A stretch of DNA of 64,000 nt, taken from contig NZ_CP035534.1 in NCBI RefSeq assembly GCF_009068765.1, positions 310,001 through 374,000 of the forward strand, written 5' to 3'. The stretch comes from Sulfurimonas hydrogeniphila (GTDB lineage Bacteria > Campylobacterota > Campylobacteria > Campylobacterales > Sulfurimonadaceae). Positions within the stretch are counted from its first letter, which is position 1; every line of letters starts with the position of its first letter. Shown in pieces: positions 31,394 through 51,236 of the stretch. The position numbers and the translations under genes are program-made. The notes beneath the pieces were generated by a model. That model saw nothing but the letters and a program-made list of their open reading frames with translations, was not told the origin of the DNA and made no database searches.

Positions 31394-31783
31394 ATGGAGC
31401 ATATAGTGACTTCAAATCCGTATTTTGGGGTATTTGTACTTTTTGTTATAACATTTGGTGCGTTTATTACAACGACTGTCGTCGCCCGATTGGCGAGTCG
31501 TGCATTGGCACGTAAAGACAGTGAAAAAATCAAACTTTCAGTGTATGAATGTGGACCTGAAATTACTAAGCAGCCAAACAGGGTGTCACCTCAGTTTTAT
31601 CTGTTTGCATTGCTTTTTTTGCTTTTTGATGTGGAAATAGTATTTATGTTCCCTTGGGCAGTAGATTTTAAAGTGCTTGGTTGGTTCGGTTTTGCTGAAA
31701 TGATAATGTTTATATTGTTATTGGCAATAGGTTTTGTATATGCATGGAAAAAAGGAGCGCTGGAATGGCACAACATAAAGTAA
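31394..31783 (+). CDS. nuoA: NADH-quinone oxidoreductase subunit A
   Basis: Membrane subunit of complex I, 129 aa with three helices. The conserved cytoplasmic loop reads YECGPEI (residues ~50-56), followed by [23 protein letters not shown], diagnostic for NuoA. First gene of the operon, about 250 nt after the AAA+ gene, preceded by AAGGTAGG. The 3' end overlaps nuoB by 19 nt. Confidence 0.97.
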
Positions 31784-32274
31784 ATTATACACAGGACGGT
31801 GGTTTACCGATAGCACTGACAAGCGTGGATAAAATTGTAAACTGGGGACGTTCTAATTCTCTATGGGCACTAACATACGGTCTTGCATGTTGCGGTATTG
31901 AAATGATGGCATCAGGTGCTTCACGATTTGACTTTGACCGTTACGGAACAATTTTCCGTGCGAGTCCCCGTCAGGCGGATGTTATGATAGTTGCCGGTAC
32001 ACTTACCAAAAAGCATGCAGAGTTCATCAAACGTCTGTATGACCAGATGACAGAACCGAGATGGGTAATATCAATGGGTTCATGTGCAAATACAGGCGGA
32101 ATGTTCAATACCTATGCGACAGTGCAGGGATGTGACAGAATTATTCCGGTTGATCTGTATCTTCCCGGTTGCGCACCGCGTCCGGAAACACTGCAGTACG
32201 GTGTAATGTTGTTACAAAAGAAAATTCGTGCAAACAAAGCAGGCAATGCACAAAAAGCTAAAAGGTTAATGTAA
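31765..32274 (+). CDS. nuoB: NADH-quinone oxidoreductase subunit B
   Basis: Carries the N2 4Fe-4S cluster, the last in the chain before quinone; 169 aa. The start at 31765 ([13 protein letters not shown]) follows AAAGGAG; an upstream start inside nuoA is possible but weaker. Conserved segments are [15 protein letters not shown] (adjacent Cys pair), [22 protein letters not shown] and [14 protein letters not shown], which together supply the N2 ligands. Confidence 0.97.
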
Positions 32275-32275
32275 T

Positions 32276-33082
32276 ATGAGAGCGTATAAACCTAAAGACA
32301 ATGTACAGGCAAAGGCATACTATACAGACAGATTTTATGTAGCGCCGCAGGTACCGAAAACAGCGGTAGAAGAAGATGCGGTTTTTGCTGCAGATTTAGA
32401 GGCGATTCAAGCAAAATTTGAAGTGAAAGAGGCCTATATTCAAGTGGAACAAATGGTCGTATACATCAATGCGCATGATATTTACGGTGTGCTTGAATTG
32501 ATGCGCGATGAGTTGGAATATACACAGCTTTCAGAAATGTCTGCTATTGACTGGCTGGCAAAAGATGATACATTCGAAATTTTTTATCAGATGCTTTCCA
32601 TGACAAAACGCAAACGTATCCGTGTGAAATATTTCATTAAAAACGGAGAGGCTGTTGACAGTGTTGAAAAGCTTTTCAGAAGTGCTGACTGGAGTGAACG
32701 TGAAATGTTTGATATGTTTGGCATTGAAGCGAACAACCATCCGTTTATGAAAAGAATTTTAATGCCGTATGACTGGGAAGGCTACCCTCTTTTAAAAACA
32801 TATCCTCTTGAAGGGGATGAATTTGCAGCATGGTATGAAGTAGATAAAATCTACGGAAAAGAAGCACGTGACATTATAGGCCCTGAACTTCGCGATACTG
32901 CAAGAGTGGACAGATATGATTCTGAGCGTTTTTCCCGTCTTGGACATGAAGTTCCAAAGGGTACAAAAATTACCGGTGACGAGCCGGCAGTTACGCATTC
33001 GTATCAGGAAGAAGGCGGCGTTTTCCTCATCAAAAAACTTGATAAAGAGTCATCAGTAGTTATTGATGATCCGCAAAGATAA
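32276..33082 (+). CDS. nuoC: NADH-quinone oxidoreductase subunit C
   Basis: 268 aa, separate from NuoD (not fused). The first ~70 residues, including a Pro/Ala-rich segment, lie ahead of the conserved core. The core shows LSEMSAIDWLAKDD-like sequence, then the NuoC motif SADWSEREMFDMFGIEANNHP (in part, residues ~138-158) and RILMPYDWEGYPLLKTYPL. A C-terminal ~80-residue extension follows. Located 1 nt after nuoB. Confidence 0.95.
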   Translation: MRAYKPKDNVQAKAYYTDRFYVAPQVPKTAVEEDAVFAADLEAIQAKFEVKEAYIQVEQMVVYINAHDIYGVLELMRDELEYTQLSEMSAIDWLAKDDTFEIFYQMLSMTKRKRIRVKYFIKNGEAVDSVEKLFRSADWSEREMFDMFGIEANNHPFMKRILMPYDWEGYPLLKTYPLEGDEFAAWYEVDKIYGKEARDIIGPELRDTARVDRYDSERFSRLGHEVPKGTKITGDEPAVTHSYQEEGGVFLIKKLDKESSVVIDDPQR

Positions 33083-33095
33083 GGTGGTATAAAAT

Positions 33096-34337
33096 ATGGC
33101 ACAGGTAAAAAACAGATTAACACCGTTTTTTGAAAATATAACATTTGACAGAGATGACAATGAACTGATATTAAACTTTGGTCCACAGCATCCGTCTGCT
33201 CACGGGCAATTACGTTTAATGCTGCATCTGCAACAGGAACAGATTGTAAAAGCACATCCTGATATCGGGTATTTGCACCGCGGTATGGAAAAAATGGCTG
33301 AAAACATGATTTATAACGAGTTTATGCCGACGACAGACCGCATGGACTATATCGCATCATCTTCAAACAACTACGGATTTGCTCTGGCTGTTGAAAAACT
33401 TATCGGGCTTGAAGTCCCTCGCCGTGCAAAAGTTATCCGTATGCTGCTTTTGGAAATCAACCGTCTTATGTCTCACCTTTTCTGGCTGGCGACGACGGCA
33501 CTTGACATCGGCGCTATGACGGTTTTTCTTTTTGCTTTCCGTGAAAGAGAATACCTGATGGATATTATCGAAGGCTATTGTGGTGCACGTTTGACACATG
33601 CAGCAATTCGTATAGGTGGAGTCCCTCTCGATCTGCAGGATGGATTTTTACACCAGCTCAGAGTATTTTTAAACAAATTGCCGCAGAATATCAAAGATTA
33701 TGAAGACCTTTTGGACTCTAACCGTATTTGGCTGATGAGAATGGAAGAGGTGGGAGTGATTTCTACAGAGATGGCACTTTCATGGGGCTGTACGGGTCCA
33801 ATGCTCAGAGCTTCTGGTGTTGCATGGGATATTCGTAAAGAAGAGCCGTATGAACTTTATGATGAAGTGGAGTTTGATGTTCCTTTTTCAGACAAAGGTG
33901 ATAACTTTGCCCGCTACCGTATCTATATGGAAGAGATGCGTCAAAGTGCGAAGATTCTGTATCAATGTATAGAAATGTATGAAAAATGCGAAAAAGACGG
34001 TCAGACTGACTTGATGGCACATGCACCGAAGTATATTTCGGCACCGAAAATCGACATAATGACACAAAACTACTCATTAATGCAGCATTTCGTTCTTGTA
34101 ACACAGGGAATGAGACCGCCGGTCGGTGAAGTGTATGTTCCGACAGAATCACCAAAAGGTGAGCTTGGATTCTACATCAATTCCCAAGGCGGTCCGTATC
34201 CGTACAGACTGAAACTGCGTGCGCCGTCATTCTGGCATACAGGAATTTTAACCGATCTTTTACCGGGTCACTACATTCCGGATGTTGTATCAATAATCGG
34301 TACAACGAACATAGTTTTCGGGGAGGTTGACAGATAA
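33096..34337 (+). CDS. nuoD: NADH-quinone oxidoreductase subunit D
   Basis: 413 aa, related to hydrogenase large subunits and forming part of the quinone site. Shows [56 protein letters not shown] and the C-terminal [43 protein letters not shown] (in part). The Cys ligands of hydrogenases are absent as expected. The last base of its stop is the first base of the next ATG (TAATG). Confidence 0.97.
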
Positions 34338-34561
34338 TGAAACGATATGATTTAAGACATTTAAAAGATAATTTTGAACCTCGTATGAAAGAGATTTTAG
34401 AAGAAAAACACAAACCGACGGAGACGTTGATATTTCTTTTTGAAATAGGAGATTTTTCTCCGATCCAAAGAAGTGCTGATTTGGTAAAAGAGTGTGGGTA
34501 TGAACTGTATAACTCATTAAAATTTAACGAAGTCGACTGGACTATCGTAGTGAAAAAATAG
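34337..34561 (+). CDS. Small complex I protein in the NuoE position (Cj1575/HP1264-like)
   Basis: 74 aa, no Cys, so it cannot carry the NuoE 2Fe-2S cluster. It begins [20 protein letters not shown]. In H. pylori and C. jejuni complex I operons the nuoE and nuoF places are filled by unrelated-looking genes (HP1264/HP1265, Cj1575c/Cj1574c). This protein fits the first of these by position and size. Translation is coupled to nuoD by a 1-nt overlap. It probably scaffolds the input module. Confidence 0.75.
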   Translation: MKRYDLRHLKDNFEPRMKEILEEKHKPTETLIFLFEIGDFSPIQRSADLVKECGYELYNSLKFNEVDWTIVVKK

Positions 34562-36619: not shown

Positions 36620-38863
36620 ATGAGTAAAATTATAAATTTTAAAATTGACGGCAAAGATGTTACAGCAGTAAAAGGGGAGACAATTCTTCAGGCTGCGAGA
36701 AAAAATGATATCTATATTCCTACTATGTGTTATATTTCAAAAACGACGCCCTGTGCATCATGCCGTATCTGTTCTGTCGAGGTAGAAGGTGTAGATGGGC
36801 TTGTTCTCTCCTGTAACACACCTCCGACAGAGGGTATTGAAGTCAGAACAAACTCTGCCGAGCTTGAGCTTGAGCGTACAAATATCATGAGACTCTATGA
36901 TGTAAATCATCCGCTGGAGTGTGGTGTTTGTGACAAATCCGGAGAATGTGATCTGCAAAATATGACTTTGGAGTTTGGCGTAGCACAACAGGAATTTTCT
37001 GCAAAAGACCAACTCAGAAAAGTGGAACACTGGGGACTGATTAATTATGACCCAGCATTATGTATTATGTGCGAAAAATGTGTACATGTATGTAATGAAG
37101 TTATAGGCGATGATGCTATTGAAGTAAAATTCGGCGGATACTCTTCTGTGATTATCCCAAAAAATGCGGATACACTGGATTGTACTTTTTGTGGTGAATG
37201 TATTGCAGTCTGTCCGGTCGGTGCTTTGGTAAGCAGTGATTTCCAGTACTCTGCAAATGCATGGGAACTCTCCCGTATTCCTTCAACATGTGCCCACTGT
37301 TCTGCCGGTTGTGCTTTGGAATATGAAACACGCCACGTCGGTATCAACGGTGAAGATTCTATTTACAGAGTGAAAAACAATTATGAATTCAATTCATTAT
37401 GTGGAGCAGGGCGTTTCGGATTTGATTTTGAAAATCGCGCCTCTAAAGACGAAGAAGCATTTAAAAAGGCAGTTGAAGCCATTCAAAATGCAAATGCTAT
37501 ACGCTTTTCTTCAATTATTACAAATGAAGAGGCACATATTTTACAGCTTTTAAAAGAGAAACTTGGGATAAAACTTTTTAATGAGGACGCAAGACTGTAT
37601 GCTGAATTTATGAAATCTTATTCTTCAGTAAGCGGTAAACTGCATCACAGTGCTTCGATGGATGCCGTCAAACAGGCCGATGCGATTATTATTATCGGCA
37701 CACGTTTGGCGACGGATAATCCGATGGTACGTTATGCTGTGCGAACAGCATCCCAGCATAATGGTGCAAAAATAGTATATGCGCATCCGCTTGAAGATGC
37801 GCTTATGAAAAATACCGCTACACAGTTTATGAAATATGAAGTGGGTACAGAAGAGGGTGTCATGGCACTTTTGGCAAATGAGCTTCTTCAAAACAGTGAT
37901 GTGGACGAACAAACCAGATCATTTTTAGATGATTTGGATTTGGGCTACCTTGAAGCTGAAAGCAATGTGGGCGATGATGAACTTAAATTAATGACGAAGT
38001 CATTCAAGCGGGCACAAAAGCATGTACTTATCATCGGAAGTGATGTATTTGCACATAAGCGTGCAAAAAATATTGCGAAACTTGCAGCTTTGATTGAAAA
38101 ATATACTGAATTTTCATTACTGATTATTCCTGCAGAAGTAAATACTGCAGGGGTTGCCCTTACATGTAAACTCGACACTGATGAAAATATAGGCAACATT
38201 GTTGCTTATAATGCAGAAGGTGACTTTATAATGTCATCTTTAAAAGATTCAGATTTAGCGATGCCGGCACTTAATCAAGTGGAAGGAACAGTTGTCAATG
38301 TTGACAATCAGGTACTTCCGTTGAATGTGGCACTTCCTTTTGAAGGATATACTTTGAATGATATAGCAAATGCTCTTGGTCTGAAAAAAGAAAATACTAT
38401 TGACTATACAAAAGAGCTCGACACATCAAAAGGTTTTAAAGCAATTGCTTTTGATGATTTGGAGAATTTTTTAACACCTTACGGTGAAGACAAAAGGGGC
38501 TATATCTTAGATGAAGTTGTCTGTGAAGCAGATTCAGAAGTAGCACCGATTGAAGAGTTGCCTGAGTTTAACGGAAGTGTAATTTATAATTGTAACCCTG
38601 TTTTGCAGTTTAATGCGTTTACAAATAAAACACATCAGTTGGAAAAAGACACAACATTAAGAGGCTCGGCTCAGTTTGCGGCAGCTGCAAAGATTGCAGA
38701 TGGTGATGTAGTTGAAATAAGCTTTGCATCAAGAACAATACAAAGAGTTTTTAAACAAGATGAAGAACTAAAAGGAACTATAGCACTCAATCCTACCTTC
38801 GATTTAGGTCAGGATTTTAGCAGATATAGATTTGAAAAATCCAAAATAGCGAGAGTAATATAA
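36620..38863 (+). CDS. nuoG: NuoG-like subunit, first copy
   Basis: 747 aa with the complete iron-sulfur set of NuoG. N-terminal 2Fe-2S cluster: C37, C48, C51, C65. His-Cys cluster: HPLECGVCDKSGEC (~93-106). Two 4Fe-4S clusters: CIMCEKCVHVC and CTFCGECIAVCPVGAL. N7-like ligands: CAHCSAGC ... CGAG. The molybdopterin-like C-terminal domain follows, with RLATDNPMVRYAVRTASQ. It ends coupled (TAATG) to a second full NuoG-like gene, so electrons could be split or passed through both. Confidence 0.93.
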   Translation: MSKIINFKIDGKDVTAVKGETILQAARKNDIYIPTMCYISKTTPCASCRICSVEVEGVDGLVLSCNTPPTEGIEVRTNSAELELERTNIMRLYDVNHPLECGVCDKSGECDLQNMTLEFGVAQQEFSAKDQLRKVEHWGLINYDPALCIMCEKCVHVCNEVIGDDAIEVKFGGYSSVIIPKNADTLDCTFCGECIAVCPVGALVSSDFQYSANAWELSRIPSTCAHCSAGCALEYETRHVGINGEDSIYRVKNNYEFNSLCGAGRFGFDFENRASKDEEAFKKAVEAIQNANAIRFSSIITNEEAHILQLLKEKLGIKLFNEDARLYAEFMKSYSSVSGKLHHSASMDAVKQADAIIIIGTRLATDNPMVRYAVRTASQHNGAKIVYAHPLEDALMKNTATQFMKYEVGTEEGVMALLANELLQNSDVDEQTRSFLDDLDLGYLEAESNVGDDELKLMTKSFKRAQKHVLIIGSDVFAHKRAKNIAKLAALIEKYTEFSLLIIPAEVNTAGVALTCKLDTDENIGNIVAYNAEGDFIMSSLKDSDLAMPALNQVEGTVVNVDNQVLPLNVALPFEGYTLNDIANALGLKKENTIDYTKELDTSKGFKAIAFDDLENFLTPYGEDKRGYILDEVVCEADSEVAPIEELPEFNGSVIYNCNPVLQFNAFTNKTHQLEKDTTLRGSAQFAAAAKIADGDVVEISFASRTIQRVFKQDEELKGTIALNPTFDLGQDFSRYRFEKSKIARVI
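38160..38169. repeat. TTACATGTAA palindrome
   Basis: Exact copy inside the first nuoG, read as Leu-Thr-Cys-Lys. Confidence 0.85.
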
Positions 38864-41349
38864 TGAGTGAAATTACCATAAACATTGACGGAAAAGATGT
38901 TCAGACAAAAGAGGGTGAGTATTTGTTAAATGCTGCCCGTGCAAATGACATATTTATTCCTGCAATATGTTATTTAACAAGATGCAGCCCGACTCTAGCC
39001 TGTCGTATATGTCTTGTTGAAGCAAATGGAAAACAGGTATATGCCTGTAATGCAAAAGCAAAAGAGGGAATGCAGGTAGTAACATCGACTGAGTCTATAG
39101 AAAAAGAGCGCAGAATCATCATGGAAGTATACGATGTGAACCATCCGCTTCAGTGTGGTGTATGTGACCAGTCAGGTGAGTGTGAACTGCAAAATTATAC
39201 ACTTGAGATGGGTGTTGATTCACAACATTATTCCATTAAAGATGTAGACAGAAGTTCTCATGACTGGGGACATTTACACTATGATCCGGGCCTTTGTATC
39301 GTGTGTGAACGTTGTGTTACTGCCTGTAAGGATATGATAGGTGACAATTCACTTAAAACAATTCCGCGCGGTTCTGATCCTATCAATGCAGATTATAAAG
39401 AGAGTATGCCAAAAGACGCATATGCAATGTGGAACAAACTCAACAAGTCTGTCATTGGTTTGACAAACGGAACTGATGTTCTTGACTGTACCTCATGCGG
39501 CGAATGTGCAGCAGTCTGTCCGGTCGGAGCACTTGTTGATACCCAGTTTATGTATAAGTCCAATGCATGGGAGTTAAAACAGGTTCCTGCAACCTGTGGA
39601 CACTGTTCTGCGGGATGTCAGATAACTTATGATCTGAAACATACAAGTATTGACAATCCTGAAGATAAAATATACCGTGTTATGAACGAATGGAACTATG
39701 TTTCACTTTGTGGTGCAGGCCGTTACGGATTTGATTATCAAAATGCCGGTGTTACAAAAGACGAGACTGCATTTGCAAATGCAGTAGAGGCCTTTAAAAA
39801 GGCAGATACAATAGCTTTTACATCTACAATTACCAATGAAGAAGCCTACCTGCTTCAAAAAATGAAAGAAAAATTCGGATACAGACTTGTCAATCCGGAA
39901 GCAAAAGCATTTCAGGATTTTTTAAACAATTATGCACAAATCAGTGGACATAAACTCTATAAAGGCGATCTGGAAAAAGTGCATAGTACAAACTTTATAG
40001 TCTCTGTCGGTTCGGCACTCAAAACTGACAATCCAAATGCACGCTATGCATTAAATAATTCGTTGACAGTAAAAAAAGGCGCAGGAATTTATTTTCATCC
40101 TGTAAAAGATCCGATTATCGAGGGTATAGGGAAGTCTATCATGACAGTTGCCCATGCTCCTCTTCAAGAAGAAGCAGCATTATATCTTCTGCTTGATCTT
40201 TTTGCAAACAAATCAAAACTGCCTTCTGATATTGTGGACTACCTTGCTTCTTTTCATTCACAAAAAACCGTTACAGTTGAAGAAGTTGTGAAAGAAAAAG
40301 TTGTGGAACTTGTCAAAGAGACAAAAGTCAATGAAGAAACAGGGGAAGAAGAAGAAATTGAAGTAGAAAAAACCAAAATGGTTTCTACAAAGATTGCAAA
40401 AGAAATAGAGGTTGATGATAACAGACTCTTGGAAATACTTGGTCTTGATGATAGTTTTATGCAAACACTTGAAAAGAACCTGAAGAAAAAAGAGACTTTT
40501 GCGCTTATGGTTGGACCAGATTTGTATATGCATCCAAATGCAAAAAACCTGGCTCGTCTGGTTGCTTTGCTGGAAAAATACTCAGCTTTTGAAGTTACCA
40601 TGATTCCAACACTTACAAACTCATTGGGTGTAGCGCTGATCTGTGACCTTGATGATGAGAAAGGCTCTTATACGGTTGCGTACAATACTGATGGCGATTT
40701 TGTACTCTCCGGGCTTGGCGACGGTGATTTGGATATGCCGGCGATCAATCAGCAGGAAGGAACATTGACATCTGTAAACAAACGTGTCAACCCTACAAAT
40801 GCTGCTATCGGATATGAGGGATATGAATTAAACGATATTGCAAAAGCGCTTGGTTTTGAAGCAGAAAATATTATAGATTACACTGTAGAACTTCCTGTTG
40901 CGAGAGGATTTAAAGCAGAAGAATTCGATAACCTGCCAAATCATTATGAAAATGACGGTACAGAAGTAAGAGGTTATGTGTTAGAAAATGTAGCAGTAGA
41001 GGCCAGTGAAGATGAAAGTGTAGAAAAATTCAGTGAAGATAAGTTAGAAGGGTGTATAATCTATTTAGCAAATCCTGTAAGACAGTTTACGGAATTTACC
41101 TACAAGACAACAAATCTTGACGAAGTAAGCGGTATTTACATGAGTGAAGAGTATTTATCCAAAACTGATTACAATGAGGGTGATACAGTCACAGTGAAAA
41201 CTAAAAAAGGTGAACTGACTGCAAAAGTTGTGTGTGACAATAAAATTGCAGGTGATATAGTGGTTTTACCTACATTTGATAAAAAATTAAACTCAGAAGC
41301 ACTCTTTGACGGCTACCGTTTTAGTACAGCTTCAATCCAAAAGGGGTAA
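38863..41349 (+). CDS. NuoG-like subunit, second copy
   Basis: 828 aa, the same domain plan as the preceding gene and also complete: CYLTRCSPTLACRIC ... YACNAK (2Fe-2S), HPLQCGVCDQSGEC (His-Cys cluster), CIVCERCVTAC and CTSCGECAAVCPVGAL (4Fe-4S), CGHCSAGC ... CGAG (N7-like). It differs by two insertions: ~25 residues between the two 4Fe-4S motifs (about 165-195) and a Glu/Lys/Val-rich stretch (about 465-525: VEEVVKEKVVELVKETK ...). Paralog of the first copy, clearly diverged, so an old duplication. Named only by homology. Confidence 0.9.
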   Translation: MSEITINIDGKDVQTKEGEYLLNAARANDIFIPAICYLTRCSPTLACRICLVEANGKQVYACNAKAKEGMQVVTSTESIEKERRIIMEVYDVNHPLQCGVCDQSGECELQNYTLEMGVDSQHYSIKDVDRSSHDWGHLHYDPGLCIVCERCVTACKDMIGDNSLKTIPRGSDPINADYKESMPKDAYAMWNKLNKSVIGLTNGTDVLDCTSCGECAAVCPVGALVDTQFMYKSNAWELKQVPATCGHCSAGCQITYDLKHTSIDNPEDKIYRVMNEWNYVSLCGAGRYGFDYQNAGVTKDETAFANAVEAFKKADTIAFTSTITNEEAYLLQKMKEKFGYRLVNPEAKAFQDFLNNYAQISGHKLYKGDLEKVHSTNFIVSVGSALKTDNPNARYALNNSLTVKKGAGIYFHPVKDPIIEGIGKSIMTVAHAPLQEEAALYLLLDLFANKSKLPSDIVDYLASFHSQKTVTVEEVVKEKVVELVKETKVNEETGEEEEIEVEKTKMVSTKIAKEIEVDDNRLLEILGLDDSFMQTLEKNLKKKETFALMVGPDLYMHPNAKNLARLVALLEKYSAFEVTMIPTLTNSLGVALICDLDDEKGSYTVAYNTDGDFVLSGLGDGDLDMPAINQQEGTLTSVNKRVNPTNAAIGYEGYELNDIAKALGFEAENIIDYTVELPVARGFKAEEFDNLPNHYENDGTEVRGYVLENVAVEASEDESVEKFSEDKLEGCIIYLANPVRQFTEFTYKTTNLDEVSGIYMSEEYLSKTDYNEGDTVTVKTKKGELTAKVVCDNKIAGDIVVLPTFDKKLNSEALFDGYRFSTASIQKG

Positions 41350-41352
41350 TAT

Positions 41353-42342
41353 ATGGATACAGCATATTTAATTGAAACGATTATAAAAGTCGTTGTAATT
41401 CTACTTATATTTTCTGCATTGGCAGGTATCGGTACATATTTTGAGCGGAAGATACTTGCATTTATGCAACGTCGTTTAGGGCCGATGTATGTCGGACCAT
41501 ACGGGTTGTTGCAGGTGGCAGCAGACGGTATAAAACTTTTTACAAAAGAAGATATTATTCCTACAAACGTAGTGGGTCCGGTATTTAAAATTGCACCTGT
41601 AATTACTGCGGCAACTGCATTTATGGCAGCAGCAGCGATTCCGTTTTTTCCACAATTCACAGTGTTCGGTTATACAGTACATCCTATTGTAGCTGATTTG
41701 AATATCGGTATTTTGTATATTCTGGGTGTAATGGCAGTCGGACTTTACGGACCTTTGCTTGGCGGTATGGCTTCGGCAAACAAATTTTCCCTGCTTTCAG
41801 CAGCGCGTACGGCAGCTGTTTTCATCTCTTATGAAGTTGTCAGCGGTTTAGCTATTCTGGCGCCGATTATGATGGTGGGTTCTTTGTCTCTGATTGATTT
41901 TAACAATTATCAGGCAGGCGGTATCAGTGACTGGATTATATGGTCTCAGCCTGTAGCCTTTGTTTTATTTTGGATCGCGGCTTTTGCTGAAACCGGACGT
42001 ACGCCGTTTCACCTGATAGCAAATGACCATGAAATTATTGACGGTTTTGGAACAGAGTACTCTGGAATGAGATGGGGTCTTTTCTTCATTGGCGAGTATG
42101 CAAATATGTTCTTTATCTCCTTTGTGATTCCTCTTATCTTTTTAGGCGGATACGGTGACGGAAGTATGCTTGGCGCATTGGGGCTGATAGGAAAAGTGGC
42201 ATTTTTCTTTTTCTTCTTTTTGTGGACAAGAGCTGCCTGGCCGGATGTAAGACCGGATCAGTTGATGTGGTTGTGTTGGAAAGTACTAATGCCATTGGCC
42301 GTGATTAATGTTGTAATCACCGGCTTTGTGATGATGTTTTAA
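41353..42342 (+). CDS. nuoH: NADH-quinone oxidoreductase subunit H
   Basis: 329 aa with about eight membrane helices, at the junction of quinone site and proton channel. Conserved segments are ERKILAFMQRRLGPMYVGPYGLLQ (in part), ADGIKLFTKEDIIP, SLLSAARTAAVFISYEV and FAETGRTPFHLIAND, then ANMFFISF and a C-terminal WTRAAWPDVRPDQLM. Starts 3 nt after the second nuoG. Confidence 0.97.
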   Translation: MDTAYLIETIIKVVVILLIFSALAGIGTYFERKILAFMQRRLGPMYVGPYGLLQVAADGIKLFTKEDIIPTNVVGPVFKIAPVITAATAFMAAAAIPFFPQFTVFGYTVHPIVADLNIGILYILGVMAVGLYGPLLGGMASANKFSLLSAARTAAVFISYEVVSGLAILAPIMMVGSLSLIDFNNYQAGGISDWIIWSQPVAFVLFWIAAFAETGRTPFHLIANDHEIIDGFGTEYSGMRWGLFFIGEYANMFFISFVIPLIFLGGYGDGSMLGALGLIGKVAFFFFFFLWTRAAWPDVRPDQLMWLCWKVLMPLAVINVVITGFVMMF

Positions 42343-42353
42343 GGGGATAATGA

Positions 42354-42971
42354 ATGAAAATGGAACAATTTAATGATAGAAATGTAGCTGACAACGGTTA
42401 CTTTTTAGTTGATATTGAAGATTATCCTACTGATGGTTGGGGTAAATTTAAACGTGTCGTAAAAAGAACTTTCAGAGCCGAACTTTTTGTAGGTTTATGG
42501 GTAGTGCTTCGTGAAATGATCAAATTTGATATTCATACGGTACAGTATCCGCAGGAGAAACTGCCTATAGGTCCTCGTTATCGTGCCGTGCATGAAATGA
42601 AAAGACTTTGGGAAAGTGATGCTGAACGTTGTATCGGATGTGGACTTTGTGAAAAAATCTGTATATCTGACTGTATTCGTATGGATACAAAGATAGATGA
42701 GAATTCACGAAAAGAAGTAACCGAATATACAATTAATTTAGGGCGTTGTATTTTTTGCGGTTACTGTGCGGAAGTTTGTCCTGAACTTGCTATTACTCAT
42801 GGCGGAGAGTATGAACAGGCATCAGAACAGCGTGAGCATTTTGTTGACTATGCGTATATGTTGACGCCACTTGACAAAATGAAAGCCGGAACTCAAATGG
42901 AGTTTGAAGGTTTTGGTGCGATTACACCACATGAAGATGAGCGTGTTAAAAAAACACCTCTAGCATATTAA
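42354..42971 (+). CDS. nuoI: NADH-quinone oxidoreductase subunit I
   Basis: 205 aa ferredoxin-like subunit carrying clusters N6a and N6b. The two motifs are CIGCGLCEKICISDC (residues ~95-109) and CIFCGYCAEVCPELAITHG (~133-151). The first lacks the usual Pro after its fourth Cys. The N-terminal amphipathic part (VVKRTFRAELFVGLWVVLREM) anchors it to the membrane arm. It links the NuoG proteins to NuoB. Confidence 0.96.
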   Translation: MKMEQFNDRNVADNGYFLVDIEDYPTDGWGKFKRVVKRTFRAELFVGLWVVLREMIKFDIHTVQYPQEKLPIGPRYRAVHEMKRLWESDAERCIGCGLCEKICISDCIRMDTKIDENSRKEVTEYTINLGRCIFCGYCAEVCPELAITHGGEYEQASEQREHFVDYAYMLTPLDKMKAGTQMEFEGFGAITPHEDERVKKTPLAY

Positions 42972-42983
42972 GGAGTTTGGATT

Positions 42984-43550
42984 ATGTTTGAAGCGGTAGC
43001 ATTTTACTTGTTTGCATTTCTGACGATAACGATGTTTTTCATCACAGTAACAACATCACAGGCGTTATATGCATTAAGTGCATTGGCAGCGGGAATGATT
43101 TTCATATCAGCATTTTTCTTTATTCTGGGTGCTGATTTTTTAGGTGCAGTGCAAATAATTGTTTACACTGGTGCAGTAATGGCTTTATATGCTTTTGGTA
43201 TGATGTTTTTTGACACGACAAGAGAAGTTAAAGAGAAACAGGGAAACAAATACATTATCGTCGGACTCTCAACACTGGCAGCAGTTCTGGTAGTTGTTAT
43301 TTTTGCAGCGCCGATGGTATCTGAAAATATTGTTGCTCTTTATCCGGCAATTGAAGGAGTAGGCAATACTCAAGAAGTAGGACTGATTTTATTTACAAAA
43401 TATCTAGTACCGTTTGAAGTGGCTGCAATTATGCTGCTTGTTGCAATGGTAGCAGGTATCGTCCTTGCAGGGAAGAAAATGGATCTTTCAATTACACTGA
43501 TGAATGATGCTGAAATTGAAGAACAAAATAACACAAAGGTACTTTCATGA
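42984..43550 (+). CDS. nuoJ: NADH-quinone oxidoreductase subunit J
   Basis: 188 aa membrane subunit with five helices. The second and third helices contain AGMIFISAFFFILGADFLGAVQIIVYTGAVMALYAFGMMFFD (in part), including the conserved GA.Q..VY.GA motif of NuoJ. It overlaps nuoK by 4 nt (ATGA). Confidence 0.96.
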   Translation: MFEAVAFYLFAFLTITMFFITVTTSQALYALSALAAGMIFISAFFFILGADFLGAVQIIVYTGAVMALYAFGMMFFDTTREVKEKQGNKYIIVGLSTLAAVLVVVIFAAPMVSENIVALYPAIEGVGNTQEVGLILFTKYLVPFEVAAIMLLVAMVAGIVLAGKKMDLSITLMNDAEIEEQNNTKVLS

Positions 43551-43855
43551 TGGAAATAGGTTTAAATCATTATCTTGTTTTATCTACTATTTTATTTGCT
43601 ATTGGTTTAGTAGGTGTTATGCGTAGAAAAAACCTTCTTTTACTGTTTTTTGCAACCGAAATACTCTTAAATGCAGTTAATGTTGCTTTTGCAGCAATTT
43701 CGCATTATTATGGCGATTTGACTGGTCAGATGTTTGCATTTTTCGTAATTGCTATTGCAGCTTCAGAAGTTGCAGTCGGTCTTGGACTTCTGATAGTATG
43801 GTATAAACGCCACAGTTCAATTGACTTAGATGCGTTAACAGCGATGAAAGGATAA
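43547..43855 (+). CDS. nuoK: NADH-quinone oxidoreductase subunit K
   Basis: 102 aa, three helices, homologous to MrpC. Shows LNHYLVLSTILFAIGLVGVM, then NLLLLFFATEILLNAVNVAF with the conserved membrane Glu (~residue 37), and AIAASEVAVGLGLLI with the second Glu (~residue 73). Two adjacent ATGs (43547 and 43550) are possible starts. Confidence 0.96.
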   Translation: MMEIGLNHYLVLSTILFAIGLVGVMRRKNLLLLFFATEILLNAVNVAFAAISHYYGDLTGQMFAFFVIAIAASEVAVGLGLLIVWYKRHSSIDLDALTAMKG

Positions 43856-43858
43856 AGA

Positions 43859-45778
43859 ATGGAAAAATATTTATACATAGCACTCTTTGCTCCGCTTGTA
43901 AGTTCTTTGTTCTCAGCGTTGTTTACAGCGACACCAAAGAAACTGTTTACGGGTATTGTTGCCAGTCTTATGATATTGACATCATTTGCAGCAAGTACAG
44001 TCCTGTTGATTTATATACTCAAAGGCGGAGAGCCTGTACATGTAGAGATGATGACATGGATGGCAACCGGAGATCTTTACATTCCTTTTGGTTTTGTTGT
44101 TGATCAGATTTCGGTAACTATGATGATGGTTGTTACCTTGGTTTCAACTATCGTACATATTTACTCTATCGGTTACATGGATCATGACAAAGGTTTTAAC
44201 CGTTTCTTCGCATGGCTGTCAGCATTTGTGTTTTCAATGATGGTTCTTGTCATGAGTGACAACTTCGCAGGACTTTTTATAGGCTGGGAAGGTGTTGGTC
44301 TCTGTTCATGGGGTCTTATCGGTTTTTGGTATCATAAACAAATTGCCACATGGGCAGCCAATGAAGCGTTTATCATGAACCGTATCGCCGACCTTGGTAT
44401 GCTTATCGGTATCTTTTTAGTCTATTGGAATACAGGTACACTGCAGTATGATGAAGCATTTGCCGTTATGCCATTGCTGGATACTGCCACATTGACATGG
44501 ATAGGTATATTTTTATTTATCGGTGCAATGGGTAAATCAGCACAGTTTCCTCTGCATACATGGCTTGCAGATGCGATGGAAGGGCCTACTCCTGTATCGG
44601 CTCTTATTCATGCAGCAACAATGGTTACAGCGGGTGTTTATCTTGTAGTGCGTTCGAATGAGCTTTACAGTTTGATTCCTCATGTCGGATTGTTTATTGC
44701 TTCACTTGGTGCATTTGTGGCATTGTTTGCAGCTTCTATGGCCCTTGTAAACCGTGATATGAAAAGAATCATTGCCTACTCTACACTTTCTCAGTTAGGG
44801 TATATGTTTGCCGCAGCAGGTCTTGGTGCTTACTGGGTTGCACTTTTTCACTTAATGGCACATGCGTTCTTTAAAGCACTGTTGTTCCTTGGTGCGGGAA
44901 ATGTAATGCATGCGATGCATGATGAACTTGATCCGTTTAAGATGGGTGGACTGAAAAAAGTAATGAAGTGGACATGGATTATGATGACAATTGCCTCATT
45001 GGCTTTGGCGGGAATCTTTCCTTTTGCAGGATTCTTTTCCAAAGATACGATTCTTGAAGCGGCATTTGCTGAGCATCACTTTGTGATTTACGGTGTACTG
45101 CTCTTTACGGCAGGTCTGACAGCATTTTATTCATTTAGACTTGTGGCACTGATCTTTCACGGTGAAGAACGTTACAAGATATTTGGTATTCATCCGCATG
45201 AAGCCTATAGATTTATGCTGATTGCAATGAGTCCGTTGCTTATTCTTGCTATGATAGCCGGAATTTTTCAAGAACCGTTCTTTGGCATGATCGAAGAAAT
45301 TTTACGTGCGCATGAGTATCATATCCATTCCCATACAACACTATGGATTATGTTGGTCGGTACGCAGCTTTTTGTAGCACTTGCTATTTTGTATGCATAT
45401 AAAAAATATGCTTCATGGAGCAGTGTTCCGGATGGCACAAGTCCGATAGAAAATTCATTTATCTATAAACTGCTGTTTAATCAGTACTATATTCCATATT
45501 TTTACGAAGAGTACCTTGTAAAACCGTACAGAGAGGCTTCTGAACTTTTCTGGACAAAAGTAGATATGAAAATTGTGGATGCTACTGTTGACGGGATTGC
45601 AGGTATTGTGTATGGTACCGGTAAGAAAACTAGGAAAATGCAAAGTGGTAACTTATCTACTATGCTTAAATGGATGGTAGCAGGTTTAGTTGGTCTGCTC
45701 TCACTCGCTGTGGTGTTTGGGCTTGCAGCAAGATATTCTGATGAGATTGTACTATTCTTATCAGCTCTAGGAGTTTAG
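43859..45778 (+). CDS. nuoL: NADH-quinone oxidoreductase subunit L
   Basis: 639 aa antiporter-like proton-pumping subunit, with about 16 helices and the long lateral helix region at its C-terminal end. Shows DNFAGLFIGWEGVGLCSWGLIGFW (in part), the Glu of the ion channel, then KSAQFPLHTWLADAMEGPTPVSALIHAATMVTAGVYL (in part), and RIIAYSTLSQLGYM. Three nt from nuoK. Confidence 0.97.
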   Translation: MEKYLYIALFAPLVSSLFSALFTATPKKLFTGIVASLMILTSFAASTVLLIYILKGGEPVHVEMMTWMATGDLYIPFGFVVDQISVTMMMVVTLVSTIVHIYSIGYMDHDKGFNRFFAWLSAFVFSMMVLVMSDNFAGLFIGWEGVGLCSWGLIGFWYHKQIATWAANEAFIMNRIADLGMLIGIFLVYWNTGTLQYDEAFAVMPLLDTATLTWIGIFLFIGAMGKSAQFPLHTWLADAMEGPTPVSALIHAATMVTAGVYLVVRSNELYSLIPHVGLFIASLGAFVALFAASMALVNRDMKRIIAYSTLSQLGYMFAAAGLGAYWVALFHLMAHAFFKALLFLGAGNVMHAMHDELDPFKMGGLKKVMKWTWIMMTIASLALAGIFPFAGFFSKDTILEAAFAEHHFVIYGVLLFTAGLTAFYSFRLVALIFHGEERYKIFGIHPHEAYRFMLIAMSPLLILAMIAGIFQEPFFGMIEEILRAHEYHIHSHTTLWIMLVGTQLFVALAILYAYKKYASWSSVPDGTSPIENSFIYKLLFNQYYIPYFYEEYLVKPYREASELFWTKVDMKIVDATVDGIAGIVYGTGKKTRKMQSGNLSTMLKWMVAGLVGLLSLAVVFGLAARYSDEIVLFLSALGV

Positions 45779-45781
45779 TAT

Positions 45782-47341
45782 ATGTTAGATCATATTTTAT
45801 CGTTATTAATTTTCTTTCCGGCACTCGCAGCCGTATTTGGTTTTATGATACAAAAAGAGAGTATGCGTGCATACGGTATCTCTGTCGCTGCTATAGAGTT
45901 TGCACTTTCACTGTGGCTGTGGTATGTATTTGATGGCAATGTGTCCGGAATGCAGTTTATGGAGAGCCTGCCGCTTGTTCCTTCTTTTGGAATCAATTAT
46001 ATACTTGGAGTGGATGGTATATCTTTGTTTATTGTTATTCTTGCAGCTTTTTTTACTATGATAGGAATAGCCAGTTTAACAGATACGCCTAATGTAAAAT
46101 ATATGATTATTACATTGTTGTTTTTACAAATGACAATGGTCGGTGTTTTTGTGGCACTTGATGCAATAGTCTTTTACATTTTTTGGGAACTTTCGCTTGT
46201 ACCTATGCTTTATATCATCGGTGCATGGGGCGGACCGTTGCGAATATATGCCTCTGTTAAATTTTTCCTGTATACTTTTACAGGTTCGCTTGTGATGCTT
46301 GTCGGTATGCTTTTTATGGCATATTTTTACTATCAGGCAACAGGTGTCTGGAGTTTCGCTATTTTAGACTGGTACAGACTGATTTTACCAGAGTCTTTCC
46401 AGCTTTGGCTTTTTGCAGCATTTTTTATCGGTTTTGCTATTAAAGTACCGATGTTTCCGTTTCACACATGGTTACCGTATGCGCACGGACAGGCACCGAC
46501 TATCGGTTCTGTTATCCTTGCAGCAATTCTGTTAAAGATGGGAACATACGCGTTCATTCGTTTCTCTTTACCAATGTTTCCGGATGCTTCGGCATTTTTT
46601 ATGGTTCCAATCGCAATCATCGCAATTATTATGATTGTGTATACTGCTATGGTTGCCTATGCGCAAAAAGACATCAAGCAGGTTGTTGCATATTCATCGA
46701 TCTCGCATATGGGTGTTATTATTCTGGGAACATTCGCACTGAATGTAGAAGGTATCTCGGGATCAATCTTTTTAATGATAGCACACGGTGTTGTTTCTGG
46801 AGCTCTGTTCCTGCTCGTAGGTGTTATTTATGACAGACGCCATACGAAGATGATGAGTGAATTTGGCGGCTTGGCACAGGTGATGCCAAGATATGCAACA
46901 ATATTTGGTCTCATGTTAATGGCTTCTGTCGGAATGCCTTTGACAATCAACTTTGTAGGTGAGTTCTTGTCGCTTCTCGGATTTTACCAACAGTCTCACA
47001 TTTTGACACTTTTAGCCGGAACAGCGATTATTGTCGGTGCCATCTATATGTTGGCAGCATACAAAAAAATGTTTTTTGGTGAGGTAACAAAAGAAGAGAA
47101 TAAAAATCTTAAAGATGTCAATAAAAGAGAATGGGTTGCCCTCCTGCCACTTGGAGTAATTACCATATGGCTGGGTATATATCCAAAACCTGTGTTGGAA
47201 CCGATTAACAACAGTGTGAAATCAATTGTACAGTTAATGCACAATAAAGCTACAACAGAATTAGGTAAAGAAAGAATTCCAAATTTAGTGAAACCTAAAG
47301 TTGTAATTATAGAAAAAACTATTATAGAGGAGGTTCACTAA
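45782..47341 (+). CDS. nuoM: NADH-quinone oxidoreductase subunit M
   Basis: 519 aa antiporter-like subunit. Shows YIFWELSLVPMLYIIGAWGG (channel Glu, about residues 130-150), VPMFPFHTWLPYAHGQAPTIGSVILAAILLKMGTYAFIRF (in part), KDIKQVVAYSSISHMGVI and GEFLSLLGFYQ. It shares one base with nuoN (TAATG). The C-terminus has a charged tail (IPNLVKPKVVIIEKTIIEEV). Confidence 0.97.
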   Translation: MLDHILSLLIFFPALAAVFGFMIQKESMRAYGISVAAIEFALSLWLWYVFDGNVSGMQFMESLPLVPSFGINYILGVDGISLFIVILAAFFTMIGIASLTDTPNVKYMIITLLFLQMTMVGVFVALDAIVFYIFWELSLVPMLYIIGAWGGPLRIYASVKFFLYTFTGSLVMLVGMLFMAYFYYQATGVWSFAILDWYRLILPESFQLWLFAAFFIGFAIKVPMFPFHTWLPYAHGQAPTIGSVILAAILLKMGTYAFIRFSLPMFPDASAFFMVPIAIIAIIMIVYTAMVAYAQKDIKQVVAYSSISHMGVIILGTFALNVEGISGSIFLMIAHGVVSGALFLLVGVIYDRRHTKMMSEFGGLAQVMPRYATIFGLMLMASVGMPLTINFVGEFLSLLGFYQQSHILTLLAGTAIIVGAIYMLAAYKKMFFGEVTKEENKNLKDVNKREWVALLPLGVITIWLGIYPKPVLEPINNSVKSIVQLMHNKATTELGKERIPNLVKPKVVIIEKTIIEEVH

Positions 47342-48849
47342 TGTTAGCGCCGATAAATATTTCAATGGAGTCGTTAAATGTAATGACTCTGGCGCCTATG
47401 CTGATACCGGTAGTAGGTGCATTGTTAATCTTAGTGATTGATGTTATCAAGGGTGGGCTTCACAAATCACTCTACGTCGTACTGAGCCTGCTCTTTTTGG
47501 CAATGGACTTTTTCTCTCTGCTTGATGCCTCAGAGATTTTTACCCAAAACGGTACAGTACTTGGTATGTTTGATGTAATGCTGATAGACGGTCTGGCTTT
47601 GTTGGCTCAGTTTATTATCGTTATAGCATCAATGCTCTTTATTCCGTTGGCTTTGACAAACAAACGCTTTCATGAGTTTTCCTATCCTGAGTTTTTTGCA
47701 CTCTTTTTGTTTATGATTGCAGGTTTCCAGTTTATGGTTGCTACAGATAATCTGATCTTGATATTTGTCGGTTTGGAAACAGCATCTTTGGCATTGTACA
47801 CGCTCATAGCTATGCATAACCGTGACAAATCTTTTGAAGCTGCTGTGAAATACTTTACAATGGGTGCCTTGGCCGCAGGTTTCTTCAGTTTCGGTGCCAT
47901 GGTCTTTTATGCATTGACGGGTTCGGTAGAAATTAATAAAATTGCCTTGGTTCTTGCTGCAAACGGGTATGCTGACATCGGATATGTCCTTGTAGGTGTT
48001 TCGTTTATGCTGGCAGCCTTTGCTTTTAAATTATCACTTATTCCATTTCATACATGGGCTCCGGATGTGTATGAAGGTTCTTCTGCACCAATGGCCGGTT
48101 ATATGTCAATCGTACCAAAAATAGCTGCTTTTGTCGTGGCTATGAGATTTTTTGAATTTTTAGTCCACAGCGGTATCGTATGGCTTGATATTGTTTTATA
48201 TGCCTTTGTCATTATTACGATGACAGTGGCAAATATGTGGGCTCTTGTACAAACTGATGTGAAGCGTATGCTGGCATACAGTTCGATTTCGCATGCAGGT
48301 TTTGTGATGGCTGCTATTTTAATAGGAACAACACAGGCAAACAGCGCACTCTTTTTATACTGGGTTCTGTTTACATTCACAAACCTCGGGTCGTTCTCAA
48401 TGCTATGGATCTCCCGTCAAAAAAGCTTACCGGATCATCAAATGTCAGACCACTCGTATGACAAATTTGCGGGGATGATTAAAACCGCACCGGTACCGGC
48501 AATGATTATGGGACTGTTTATGCTGAGCTTGGCAGGAATCCCTCCGTTTGCACTGTTTTGGGGTAAAATCTATCTGATCAGCTCTGCGGTAACAAGCGGT
48601 TATACAATCCTTGCACTTATTATGGCACTAAACTCAGCAATAGCAGGGTATTACTATTTAAAACTTATTGTATACATGTTTATGAAAGAACCGGTTGTCG
48701 GTGCGAGCGGACAGATATATGTTGCCAATGCGACATTGGCGCTCAAAACTATTATCGGTATAGCAGCAGTAGGAACCATATTTGCTTTTGTTGCTATAAA
48801 CCCGCTTCTAGAGTTTATTACAGCTTTTGTATATAACAGTGGATATTAA
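47341..48849 (+). CDS. nuoN: NADH-quinone oxidoreductase subunit N
   Basis: 502 aa, third antiporter-like subunit. Shows NLILIFVGLETASLALYTLIAMHNRDKSFEAAVKYF (in part, channel Glu near residue 150), SLIPFHTWAPDVYEGSSAP, DVKRMLAYSSISHAGFVM and LSLAGIPPFALFWGKIYL, all typical of NuoN. Last gene of the complex I operon; pflA follows 32 nt later. Confidence 0.97.
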   Translation: MLAPINISMESLNVMTLAPMLIPVVGALLILVIDVIKGGLHKSLYVVLSLLFLAMDFFSLLDASEIFTQNGTVLGMFDVMLIDGLALLAQFIIVIASMLFIPLALTNKRFHEFSYPEFFALFLFMIAGFQFMVATDNLILIFVGLETASLALYTLIAMHNRDKSFEAAVKYFTMGALAAGFFSFGAMVFYALTGSVEINKIALVLAANGYADIGYVLVGVSFMLAAFAFKLSLIPFHTWAPDVYEGSSAPMAGYMSIVPKIAAFVVAMRFFEFLVHSGIVWLDIVLYAFVIITMTVANMWALVQTDVKRMLAYSSISHAGFVMAAILIGTTQANSALFLYWVLFTFTNLGSFSMLWISRQKSLPDHQMSDHSYDKFAGMIKTAPVPAMIMGLFMLSLAGIPPFALFWGKIYLISSAVTSGYTILALIMALNSAIAGYYYLKLIVYMFMKEPVVGASGQIYVANATLALKTIIGIAAVGTIFAFVAINPLLEFITAFVYNSGY

Positions 48850-48881: not shown

Positions 48882-51236
48882 TTGCTAAAATGGATACTCC
48901 TGGCCTTTGTTCTTACAAATTCTTTTGCACTTGAAATTTCCATAGAGAGTGCAAAGGACAACTTCATAAAATACTCTACACTTGATATTCGAAACACTGA
49001 ACGCTTTACATGTAAAGAAATTAAAAATGATCTTGATACAGTTTTGGAAATTCGATGTATTTTTTTAAAAAGACCAGTGCGAAAACTCAAGCATATTCAA
49101 AATGATTTTTTTAAAGTAAATACAGTTTTTAAAGATGAAAAATTTATTGTTACAATCAAGCCTTTTTACAAAATAAAATTGATTCCGGAAATATTTGATC
49201 TCACAAAAGACAATGAAGTTTTTAATGCAAATGTAACATATTCAGACCATTGGAGTGTTCTAGGGTACAAAAAAACATTTCCTTTGTTTAAGCAGGAGGA
49301 AGCCTCTTCACTTGCATTGGATTTTCCTTTTTACCTTGACAAAGACAAACTGCCGTATGTAGGAAGTCTGGACCTGCAGGGAAACCCGGTATATATCAAA
49401 AATGTAGAAGATGTGAAAGAGTACTTGAAAATAAAAAAGTATTATAAACACAAAGAGTATGAAATGTGTCTTGAAAGTATAAATGACATATTGAATGATT
49501 ATCCAAATACGCTTTTTAAAGCAGAGCTGCTCTATTATAAAATTAAAGTGTATGCAAAAATAAAAGACTGGGATAATGTAGTAAGTGTAGCAAAAGAGTT
49601 TTTAAGAGAATACTCTTCTGATGAGAATGTAGCAGAGGTCCTTTCCCTGGTAGCAAAAGCATATGCCAAACTCGGTGAAAATTCAAATGCTGACTACTTT
49701 TATGACCGATTGTTTACAGAACATCCAAAAAGTAAATTTACACAACTGGGATATATATACAAGGGAGAGATGCTTGAAGAGTCAGGTGGTACAAAACAAG
49801 CGCTAAAGTATTATAAAAAAGCATTGTATGAGACGAAAGATTTAGAGGTGGCAGCAAATGCCGCATACCATTTAGCCTCTTTGTATCTTTCTTACAAGCC
49901 AAAAGAGGCTTCGCAGTATGCGATGAAAATTATTCAGGCAGATCCTGGCTTTTTTATGGAAGATTTTAAAGCATCACAAAAGATGATGGAGGAATTTGCA
50001 AATCAGGGGTATTATAAAGTTGCTGCAGCTATAGCCGATACTTTGTTGCAGGAGATCGATGCCACATATGATGAATATGAAGAGTTGCTTAAAAACAAAG
50101 CTTTATGGCTTGCTCAAACAAAAGAGAAAAAGAAGGCTCTGGCTGCTCTCAATGAATATTTGAAAAAGTTTCCTGACGGAGACTATGTGGATGCTGTTCA
50201 GGTTGCCAAAGACGCACTCTTTTTTGAAGTTTCTGATTTAAATACAACAGCAAAACTGGCAGAATTTGACAAGCTTATTCAAGAGTACCAAAACGATACT
50301 ATAGGCAAACGCGCACTGTATGAAAAAGCAAAATTACTTTTAAAAGAGGGAAAATACAAAGAGGTGCTCTCTTTAAAAAACTCCCTGGAATCTCTGGATG
50401 GGACAGAGTATAAAGATATCCAAAAAATTATACAGGATGCTGCTATCGGAGAGATGAAACAGTCTCTGCGTAAGAAAAACTGTAAACAGGTTTTAATCAT
50501 ATCAAATGAATATAATATTACGCTTTCGGATAAATGGGATGACGGTATATATGAATGTGCAATGAAAGGCGGAGATTTTCAGCTTTCAAAAAGTATAGCA
50601 CGTAAAAATTTAAAATCCAAAGATTTGGATAAGCGAAAAAAATGGCTCTTTCGCTACATAAAAGTTGATTTTGCTACGGGAAATTACAGTGATGTACTGG
50701 ATGCAGCCAAAGATTTAATTACTTTGATAGAAGATGACAAAAATTCAAAATACAAAGAGGTTTACAGATATCTGTTTGATACATATGAACGATTAGAGCA
50801 AAAAGAGAAGATGATTGATGCAATGGCAAAAATCGAAGAAATTTTTGGCCTCGACTATAAAGATATAGAACGTTATGTTGCAATGGTAACATTCGGAAAC
50901 GAACGACATGATGATAATTTGATAATAAAATATGCAAAAAAAGTAATGCAGATACAGAACAAATCAAATTCCTATGCGCAGAGTCCTTATGTGGAATTTG
51001 CACTGTACCAGGCATATATGGATAAAAAAGAGTACAACAAGGCTTTGGAAGTTATAAAATCATTGGATAAACTGGGATTAAGGCCTACATTACGTGCGCG
51101 GCAAAAATATCTTTTAGGCAGTGTACTTGATAAACTATGGAGAGATGATGCAGCGAAAAAAGCATATAAGGAAGCAATAGCCGCTGACCCAAAATCTTCC
51201 TGGGCCAAACTGGCAAAAAGTGCATTGGAACTTTAA
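48882..51236 (+). CDS. pflA: Flagellar motor TPR protein PflA
   Basis: 784 aa from a TTG start at 48882, with GGGGGAG just upstream. A signal peptide (MLKWILLAFVLTNSFA) precedes a ~150-residue beta-rich N-terminal part and then tandem tetratricopeptide-like helices across ~180-780 (for example AEVLSLVAKAYAKLGENSNADYFYDRLFTEHPKSKFTQL in part; KALAALNEYLKKFPDGDYVDA). Size and the place straight after nuoN match C. jejuni PflA, a periplasmic component of the flagellar motor disk, needed for rotation. Not a complex I subunit. Confidence 0.85.
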   Translation: MLKWILLAFVLTNSFALEISIESAKDNFIKYSTLDIRNTERFTCKEIKNDLDTVLEIRCIFLKRPVRKLKHIQNDFFKVNTVFKDEKFIVTIKPFYKIKLIPEIFDLTKDNEVFNANVTYSDHWSVLGYKKTFPLFKQEEASSLALDFPFYLDKDKLPYVGSLDLQGNPVYIKNVEDVKEYLKIKKYYKHKEYEMCLESINDILNDYPNTLFKAELLYYKIKVYAKIKDWDNVVSVAKEFLREYSSDENVAEVLSLVAKAYAKLGENSNADYFYDRLFTEHPKSKFTQLGYIYKGEMLEESGGTKQALKYYKKALYETKDLEVAANAAYHLASLYLSYKPKEASQYAMKIIQADPGFFMEDFKASQKMMEEFANQGYYKVAAAIADTLLQEIDATYDEYEELLKNKALWLAQTKEKKKALAALNEYLKKFPDGDYVDAVQVAKDALFFEVSDLNTTAKLAEFDKLIQEYQNDTIGKRALYEKAKLLLKEGKYKEVLSLKNSLESLDGTEYKDIQKIIQDAAIGEMKQSLRKKNCKQVLIISNEYNITLSDKWDDGIYECAMKGGDFQLSKSIARKNLKSKDLDKRKKWLFRYIKVDFATGNYSDVLDAAKDLITLIEDDKNSKYKEVYRYLFDTYERLEQKEKMIDAMAKIEEIFGLDYKDIERYVAMVTFGNERHDDNLIIKYAKKVMQIQNKSNSYAQSPYVEFALYQAYMDKKEYNKALEVIKSLDKLGLRPTLRARQKYLLGSVLDKLWRDDAAKKAYKEAIAADPKSSWAKLAKSALEL
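49006..49015. repeat. TTACATGTAA palindrome
   Basis: Exact copy in pflA, read as Phe-Thr-Cys-Lys; extended context CTTTACATGTAAAG. Confidence 0.85.

Follow-up and report, generated by a model that had tools for sequence, protein, structure and literature searches.

Two diverged NuoG proteins encoded in tandem in the complex I operon of Sulfurimonas hydrogeniphila, and a derivation of the HP1265/Cj1574-type subunit from one of them

The nuo operon of the sulfur-oxidising bacterium Sulfurimonas hydrogeniphila was found to encode two full-length, diverged NuoG proteins, G1 and G2, next to each other and behind a chimeric input subunit, F*. Descriptions of complex I normally include a single NuoG. 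The data presented here suggest that a single complex of the epsilon-Nuo type probably holds both, in which G2 would be the true NuoG and G1 an adapter between F* and G2.

The nuo operon and its gene set

The window, that is, the whole stretch of DNA analysed, comprises 64,000 nucleotides of contig NZ_CP035534.1 (positions 310,001 to 374,000). The genome is a single contig of 2.34 Mb, and its relatives by sequence are Sulfurimonas. The operon reads nuoA-B-C-D-E-F*-G1-G2-H-I-J-K-L-M-N, with overlaps or gaps of a few bases between the genes, as follows.

31394-31783, + strand: nuoA, by Pfam/NCBIfam match
31744-32274, + strand: nuoB, by Pfam/NCBIfam match
32276-33082, + strand: nuoC, by Pfam/NCBIfam match; separate from nuoD
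33096-34337, + strand: nuoD, by Pfam/NCBIfam match; the sole NuoD of the genome (single PF00346 match genome-wide)
34337-34561, + strand: E, 74-aa HP1264/Cj1575-type subunit (FMN-binding NuoE replacement), by phmmer and PF16514
34565-36607, + strand: F*, chimeric input subunit, by PF10589, PF14691 and PF07992
36620-38863, + strand: G1, extra NuoG, 747 aa, by ORF, PRK08493, ligands, AF2 and Foldseek
38863-41349, + strand: G2, NuoG, 828 aa, by ORF, PRK08493, tree, AF2 and Foldseek
41353-42342, + strand: nuoH, by Pfam/NCBIfam
42354-42971, + strand: nuoI, by Pfam/NCBIfam
42984-43550, + strand: nuoJ, by position and size; the order recurs in relatives
43547-43855, + strand: nuoK, on the same grounds
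43859-45778, + strand: nuoL, on the same grounds
45782-47341, + strand: nuoM, on the same grounds
47341-48849, + strand: nuoN, on the same grounds

The junction from nuoD to E shows TAATG coupling. A DUF7494/TPR-repeat protein (48882-51236) lies directly 3' of nuoN. Genome-wide, one NuoD, one NuoF N3 domain and two NuoG-type genes were counted, and no NuoG besides G1 and G2 was found in this genome. The canonical NuoF flavin fold (PF01512) had no match anywhere in the genome. Since a PF00258 flavodoxin was also absent from the genome and four POR_N proteins (2-oxoacid:ferredoxin-oxidoreductase type) were above the family cut-off, ferredoxin, not a PF00258-type flavodoxin, would be the likely one-electron carrier.

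The E and F* input subunits

E matched HP1264 (PDB 2lxr) over residues 1-74 in phmmer (E-value 1.9e-22; 53% identity) and PF16514 with 136.7 bits. HP1264 is known to bind FMN (PMC6269979). F* combines the NuoF N3 domain (PF10589, NADH_4Fe-4S, 69 bits) with Fer4_20 (PF14691, 82 bits) and a GltD-like FAD/NAD(P)H domain (PF07992, 95 bits), and is devoid of the NuoF FMN fold. It scored below the cut-offs of the GltD-type models (TIGR01316, 275 bits against 472; PRK12771, 379 bits against 516). Its start is probably the GTG at 34571, behind AGGGA. The genome also encodes a separate 466-aa protein with Fer4_20.

Among 105 relatives, the six Fer4_20 cysteines of F* and its N3 ligands C79, C82 and C125 were invariant, and the third N3 position was occupied by Gly (Gly85), not Cys, in every one of the 105. 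The N3-type centre of F*, if present, would thus be no standard four-Cys cluster, and it may be a 3Fe4S cluster or one with a non-Cys ligand. Since the third N3 Cys is missing, the link from F* to a NuoG is itself uncertain.

G1 and G2 as NuoG proteins

The earlier note had described two full-length, diverged NuoG proteins in tandem with TAATG coupling between them, and the two ORFs were recovered as such; the TAA of G1 and the ATG of G2 have one base in common. The two proteins are 44.8% identical across 741 aligned residues. The Campylobacterota-type NCBIfam model PRK08493 ('NuoG', cut-off 591 bits) gave 930 bits for G1 and 1169 bits for G2, and the general NuoG equivalog TIGR01973 (cut-off 470) was not reached (243 and 185 bits, respectively). 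These scores indicate that G1 and G2 form a divergent, phylum-specific branch of NuoG. The Fdh-alpha equivalog TIGR01591 (cut-off 666) was not reached either (41.6 bits for G1 and 25.3 bits for G2), and the molybdopterin-type Pfam matches were weak (30 and 23 bits, respectively). In the AF2 models (G1, pLDDT 83.1 and pTM 0.86; G2, pLDDT 79.1 and pTM 0.79), both proteins had the NuoG fold, with Foldseek E-values down to 3e-39 (G1) and 9e-31 (G2) against complex I NuoG chains; the alpha chains of formate dehydrogenases, which are related, were matched by both models too.

The Fe-S domain spans residues ~1-278 of G1 (36620-37453) and ~1-300 of G2 (38863-39762). The ligand sets in G1 are C37/48/51/65 for N1b, H97/C101/C104/C110 for N5, C148/151/154/198 for N4, C158/188/191/194 for an extra 4Fe4S cluster, and C224/227/231/261 for N7. 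Those in G2 are C36/47/50/62, H94/C98/C101/C107, C145/148/151/219, C155/209/212/215, and C245/248/252/283, in the same order. The statement in the earlier note that no ligands had been lost therefore held for both proteins of this genome, but not across the relatives. N1b, N5 and N4 were invariant there (107/107 G1 and 117/117 G2 sequences), whereas the extra 4Fe4S site, present in 117/117 G2, was kept in 77/107 G1 and lost in 30/107, mostly Sulfurovum-like ones, and N7 was kept in 100/107 G1 and 89/117 G2. N7 is the site that G2 dispenses with most readily. The dN/dS values against four relatives were 0.05-0.09 for G1 as well as for G2, with dS near saturation, and point to strong purifying selection on both.

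Several local features of G2 were observed. An extra cysteine within the N1b loop, Cys41 (38983-38985), was kept in 116/117 G2. A long, charged, two-stranded beta-hairpin arm was predicted by AlphaFold at residues ~463-521 (40249-40425) with low-to-moderate confidence, and is absent from G1 and some relatives. The hairpin was considered as a clamp for G1 and rejected, being lost in some two-NuoG genomes and found in some single-NuoG ones. In one 2.11-Mb genome, a stretch of nine C (L123:10528-10536) interrupts G2, leaving two ORFs (309 and 537 aa); this may reflect a frameshift, phase variation or a sequencing error. In genus g42, from the family of the Helicobacter-type genomes (L157, L158 and L159), the subunits are oversized (F* 732-962, G1 813-1046 and G2 933-1012 aa) and carry uncharacterised insertions.

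Distribution across Campylobacterota

A total of 298 Campylobacterota genomes with a completeness of at least 90% were surveyed, and the counts were taken by hand from the match lists. An ORF was scored as F* when it had the size of F* and carried the N3 domain, and a PF10588 match was scored as NuoG-type. F* was present in 80/298 genomes, 78 of which had at least two PF10588 matches; the two exceptions (L155 and L156) were cut by contig ends. The order E-F*-G1-G2-H-I was common to the complete F* operons read, that is, those with enough flanking sequence. All 38 operons read with a single NuoG lacked F*; they were of the Campylobacter, Helicobacter and Sulfurospirillum types (putative family names). 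Furthermore, F* and the Fe-S half of G1 were kept or lost together. A canonical complex I with a C-D fusion and a NuoF of ~400-450 aa occurs separately (L126, L131, L136-L138 and L190), in some Arcobacteraceae-like, Sulfurospirillum-like and other genomes.

In the scan for close relatives, the best 80 matches bore Campylobacterota names or generic MAG titles. The distribution indicates that the G1-G2 tandem is an old and conserved Campylobacterota trait and no local oddity. No report of two NuoG proteins in Campylobacterota was found in the open-access literature.

The remnant of G1 in single-NuoG operons

An ORF of ~220-350 aa without Fe-S ligands was located between E and G2 in 35/38 single-NuoG operons; L141, in which a full G1 is cut off at the contig edge, was left out of this count. 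The ORF matched only residues ~376-506 (37745-38137) and ~636-744 (38525-38851) of G1, so that the entire Fe-S half and residues ~507-635 are missing from it. In hmmsearch, it gave 80-204 bits with the G1 C-terminal profile and 9-59 bits with the G2 profile, and it belonged to no Pfam family and to no NCBIfam model above the cut-off. In the tree it fell with G1, and the Helicobacter sequences stood beside the full-length Helicobacteraceae-type G1 (99, starred). Judged by these matches, the ORF is a remnant derived from the C-terminal half of G1.

In one operon, E was identical to HP1264 (74/74) and the remnant lay directly behind it; the adjoining remnant is therefore HP1265, which has been annotated as 'NADH-ubiquinone oxidoreductase chain F' (PMC3561388). 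The Campylobacter counterpart, by position, is Cj1574. The HP1265-type subunit upstream of NuoG is absent from the operon of the window, where the full-length G1 takes that place.

A single 351-aa ORF (L127:4211-5266) fuses an HP1264-type E domain with the C-terminal remnant of G1 in an operon that has G2. This fusion hints that E and the remnant touch in the complex.

In three Helicobacter-type genomes (L171, L172 and L173), the remnant was wholly lost and E overlapped the start of the single NuoG; the idea that the remnant is indispensable was therefore rejected. A single origin of the remnant was rejected as well, moderately only (p-AU 0.028), which indicates that at least two reductions of G1 were independent. 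The operon tree required five state changes, four of which were forced by starred branches. Transfer of operon parts between lineages may account for part of the repeated reductions. The remnant boundaries were similar in all lineages, as would be expected from domain borders, but also from a smaller number of events.

Origin of the duplication

The G2 sequences formed one clade (100, starred) containing every single NuoG, which identifies the one NuoG that Campylobacter and Helicobacter have as G2. G1 and G2 grouped together against Aquifex NuoG, FdsA, HydA and the canonical Campylobacterota NuoG (96, starred), so that the duplication predates the Campylobacterales crown. For the same reason, a lateral import of G1 was unsupported. 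The place of the root within the G1-G2 group was blurred because of long branches. The concern that either copy might be a formate dehydrogenase or hydrogenase subunit was settled by the family scores, the gene order and the tree, by which both are NuoG. The form with two NuoG proteins and F* seems to represent the ancestral, more complete type of epsilon-Nuo, with nuoY as its relic.

A probable complex with both NuoG proteins

The remodelled peripheral arm that had been suggested is well supported, since no complete operon read had F* but not G1, and F* and the Fe-S half of G1 were lost jointly. As to whether two complexes form or one contains both, which the earlier note had left undecided, the single NuoD, the fixed gene order and the retention of the remnant beside G2 favour one complex with both. 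In such a complex, G2 would occupy the normal NuoG place and pass electrons on to NuoI, and G1, close to E and G2, would be docked on the same arm via its C-terminal half. The N1b-N4-N5 clusters of G1 would connect the cofactors of F* (FAD and Fe-S clusters) with the G2 clusters for electron transfer, giving the putative route F* <-> G1 <-> G2 <-> NuoI <-> NuoB <-> menaquinone. NAD(P)H would be the electron-exchange partner of F*, as its FAD domain suggests. In this autotroph with four 2-oxoacid:ferredoxin-oxidoreductase-type genes, the complex would probably often run in reverse, with the proton-motive force driving menaquinol electrons to NAD(P)+ and possibly to ferredoxin. In the lineages without F*, flavodoxin or ferredoxin would donate directly to G2, and what is left of G1 would in most cases be just its cluster-free docking part.

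In C. jejuni, Cj1574, probably with Cj1575, is reported to pass flavodoxin electrons to complex I (Weerakoon and Olson 2008, as cited in PMC4178425 and PMC6682613), which fits the region of E and the G1 tail as an electron-entry site. In an excerpt on blue-native gels of C. jejuni, NuoG, C and D are reported in the complex and Cj1574 is not among the proteins reported there (PMC7717971). Since the extra 4Fe4S and N7 of G1 are missing in some relatives and the N7 of G2 in others, there is no obvious universal cluster contact between G1 and G2. N7 of G2 was rejected as such a contact, being missing in many single-NuoG taxa and also in several two-NuoG Sulfurovaceae, yet kept in Helicobacter-type operons.

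A doubtful but conceivable extension is a complex I with two inputs, in which F* (FAD, NAD(P)H, via G1) and E (FMN, ferredoxin) would both feed G2. Such an enzyme would be able to divide or combine electron flow among NAD(P)H, ferredoxin and the quinone pool, driven by the proton-motive force and possibly bifurcating. Both reductants of the reductive TCA cycle would then come from menaquinol.

It is unlikely that F* and G1 make up a soluble enzyme of their own, of NAD(P)H-ferredoxin or dehydrogenase type, which shares no more than transcription with complex I or docks to it transiently. F* does resemble GltD/NfnB-type flavoproteins, and the best PDB matches of G1 in Foldseek were formate dehydrogenase alpha subunits, including soluble ones, together with complex I NuoG, with a HydABCSL hydrogenase subunit among the top. 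However, in the operons read F* and G1 always had nuoD/E on one side and G2 on the other, inside the nuo operon, and the G1 remnant stayed in operons without F*. Moreover, Cj1574 is reported to act with complex I, and the formate dehydrogenase score of G1, 42 bits, was far below the cut-off of 666.

Two alternative complexes are quite unlikely as well: F*-G1, using NAD(P)H, and E-G2, using ferredoxin or flavodoxin, would fill the same NuoG position in different complexes that have the membrane arm in common. That both proteins are complete NuoG folds with full core ligands, at 45% identity, would suit this arrangement, but the genes are coupled within a single operon that has just one each of NuoD, H and I. 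The cluster-free C-terminal half of G1 usually stays by G2 after F* is lost, which is unexplained for a competitor for the site, and the fusion of E with the remnant ties the G1 C-terminus to E in an operon with G2.

It is very improbable that G1 is a superfluous duplicate heading for loss, retained through drift or dosage and without a role of its own. It has been reduced to a fragment in several lineages and is gone in three genomes, but its dN/dS is similar to that of G2, its N1b/N5/N4 ligands do not vary among 107 sequences, and its loss goes with that of F* and is not random decay.

Comparison with known systems

Epsilon-Nuo (nuoXY; Cj1575/Cj1574 in C. jejuni and HP1264/HP1265 in H. pylori) is the closest known system. 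It shares with the Sulfurimonas operon the gene order, the HP1264-type E, the lack of a canonical NuoE/NuoF flavin fold and an orthologous G2. However, Sulfurimonas has F* and a full-length G1 with five Fe-S sites, whereas C. jejuni and H. pylori have no F* and just the ligand-free C-terminal remnant of G1. With canonical complex I of Escherichia coli and Thermus thermophilus, the NuoG fold with N1b, N4, N5 and N7 and the ABCDHIJKLMN core are shared; in contrast, Sulfurimonas lacks NuoE and the NuoF FMN domain, has two NuoG proteins that both bear an extra 4Fe4S site, and has a GltD-like flavin domain in F*.

NUO-2 of Nitrospina gracilis/Kuenenia has been proposed as a low-potential complex I by which autotrophs would reduce ferredoxin through reverse electron flow, with a NuoF2 that lacks the FMN site and has added clusters, and a NuoG2 with N1b, N4, N5, N7 and one extra 4Fe4S (PMC3578206). 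It is analogous in purpose, with a modified input and extra clusters, but a tandem NuoG in one operon is not described there. The NuoG of Aquifex aeolicus (7q5y) was the best PDB sequence match for both G1 and G2, and likewise has eight ferredoxin-type Cys (N4 and the extra cluster). The solved structure has a single NuoG, and an excerpt on this complex I describes a canonical NuoEF-type electron input (PMC6560083). NAD-dependent formate dehydrogenase alpha and HydABCSL subunit A share the NuoG-like N-terminal Fe-S module and a related C-terminal fold. G1 and G2 differ from formate dehydrogenases in scoring far under the Fdh-alpha cut-off, in being shorter and in their complex I operon context.

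Implications

If both copies are in one complex, the ligand sets predict an Fe-S inventory of ~15-16 sites and a wire that is longer or branched. HP1265/Cj1574, a 'NuoF replacement' of no Pfam family, is given an origin as the cluster-free tail of a second NuoG, which makes the flavodoxin electron uptake by a Campylobacter/Helicobacter complex I without NuoE/NuoF testable. For autotrophic vent Campylobacterota, the arrangement suggests a route by which NAD(P)H, and perhaps ferredoxin, would be reduced with electrons from quinol.
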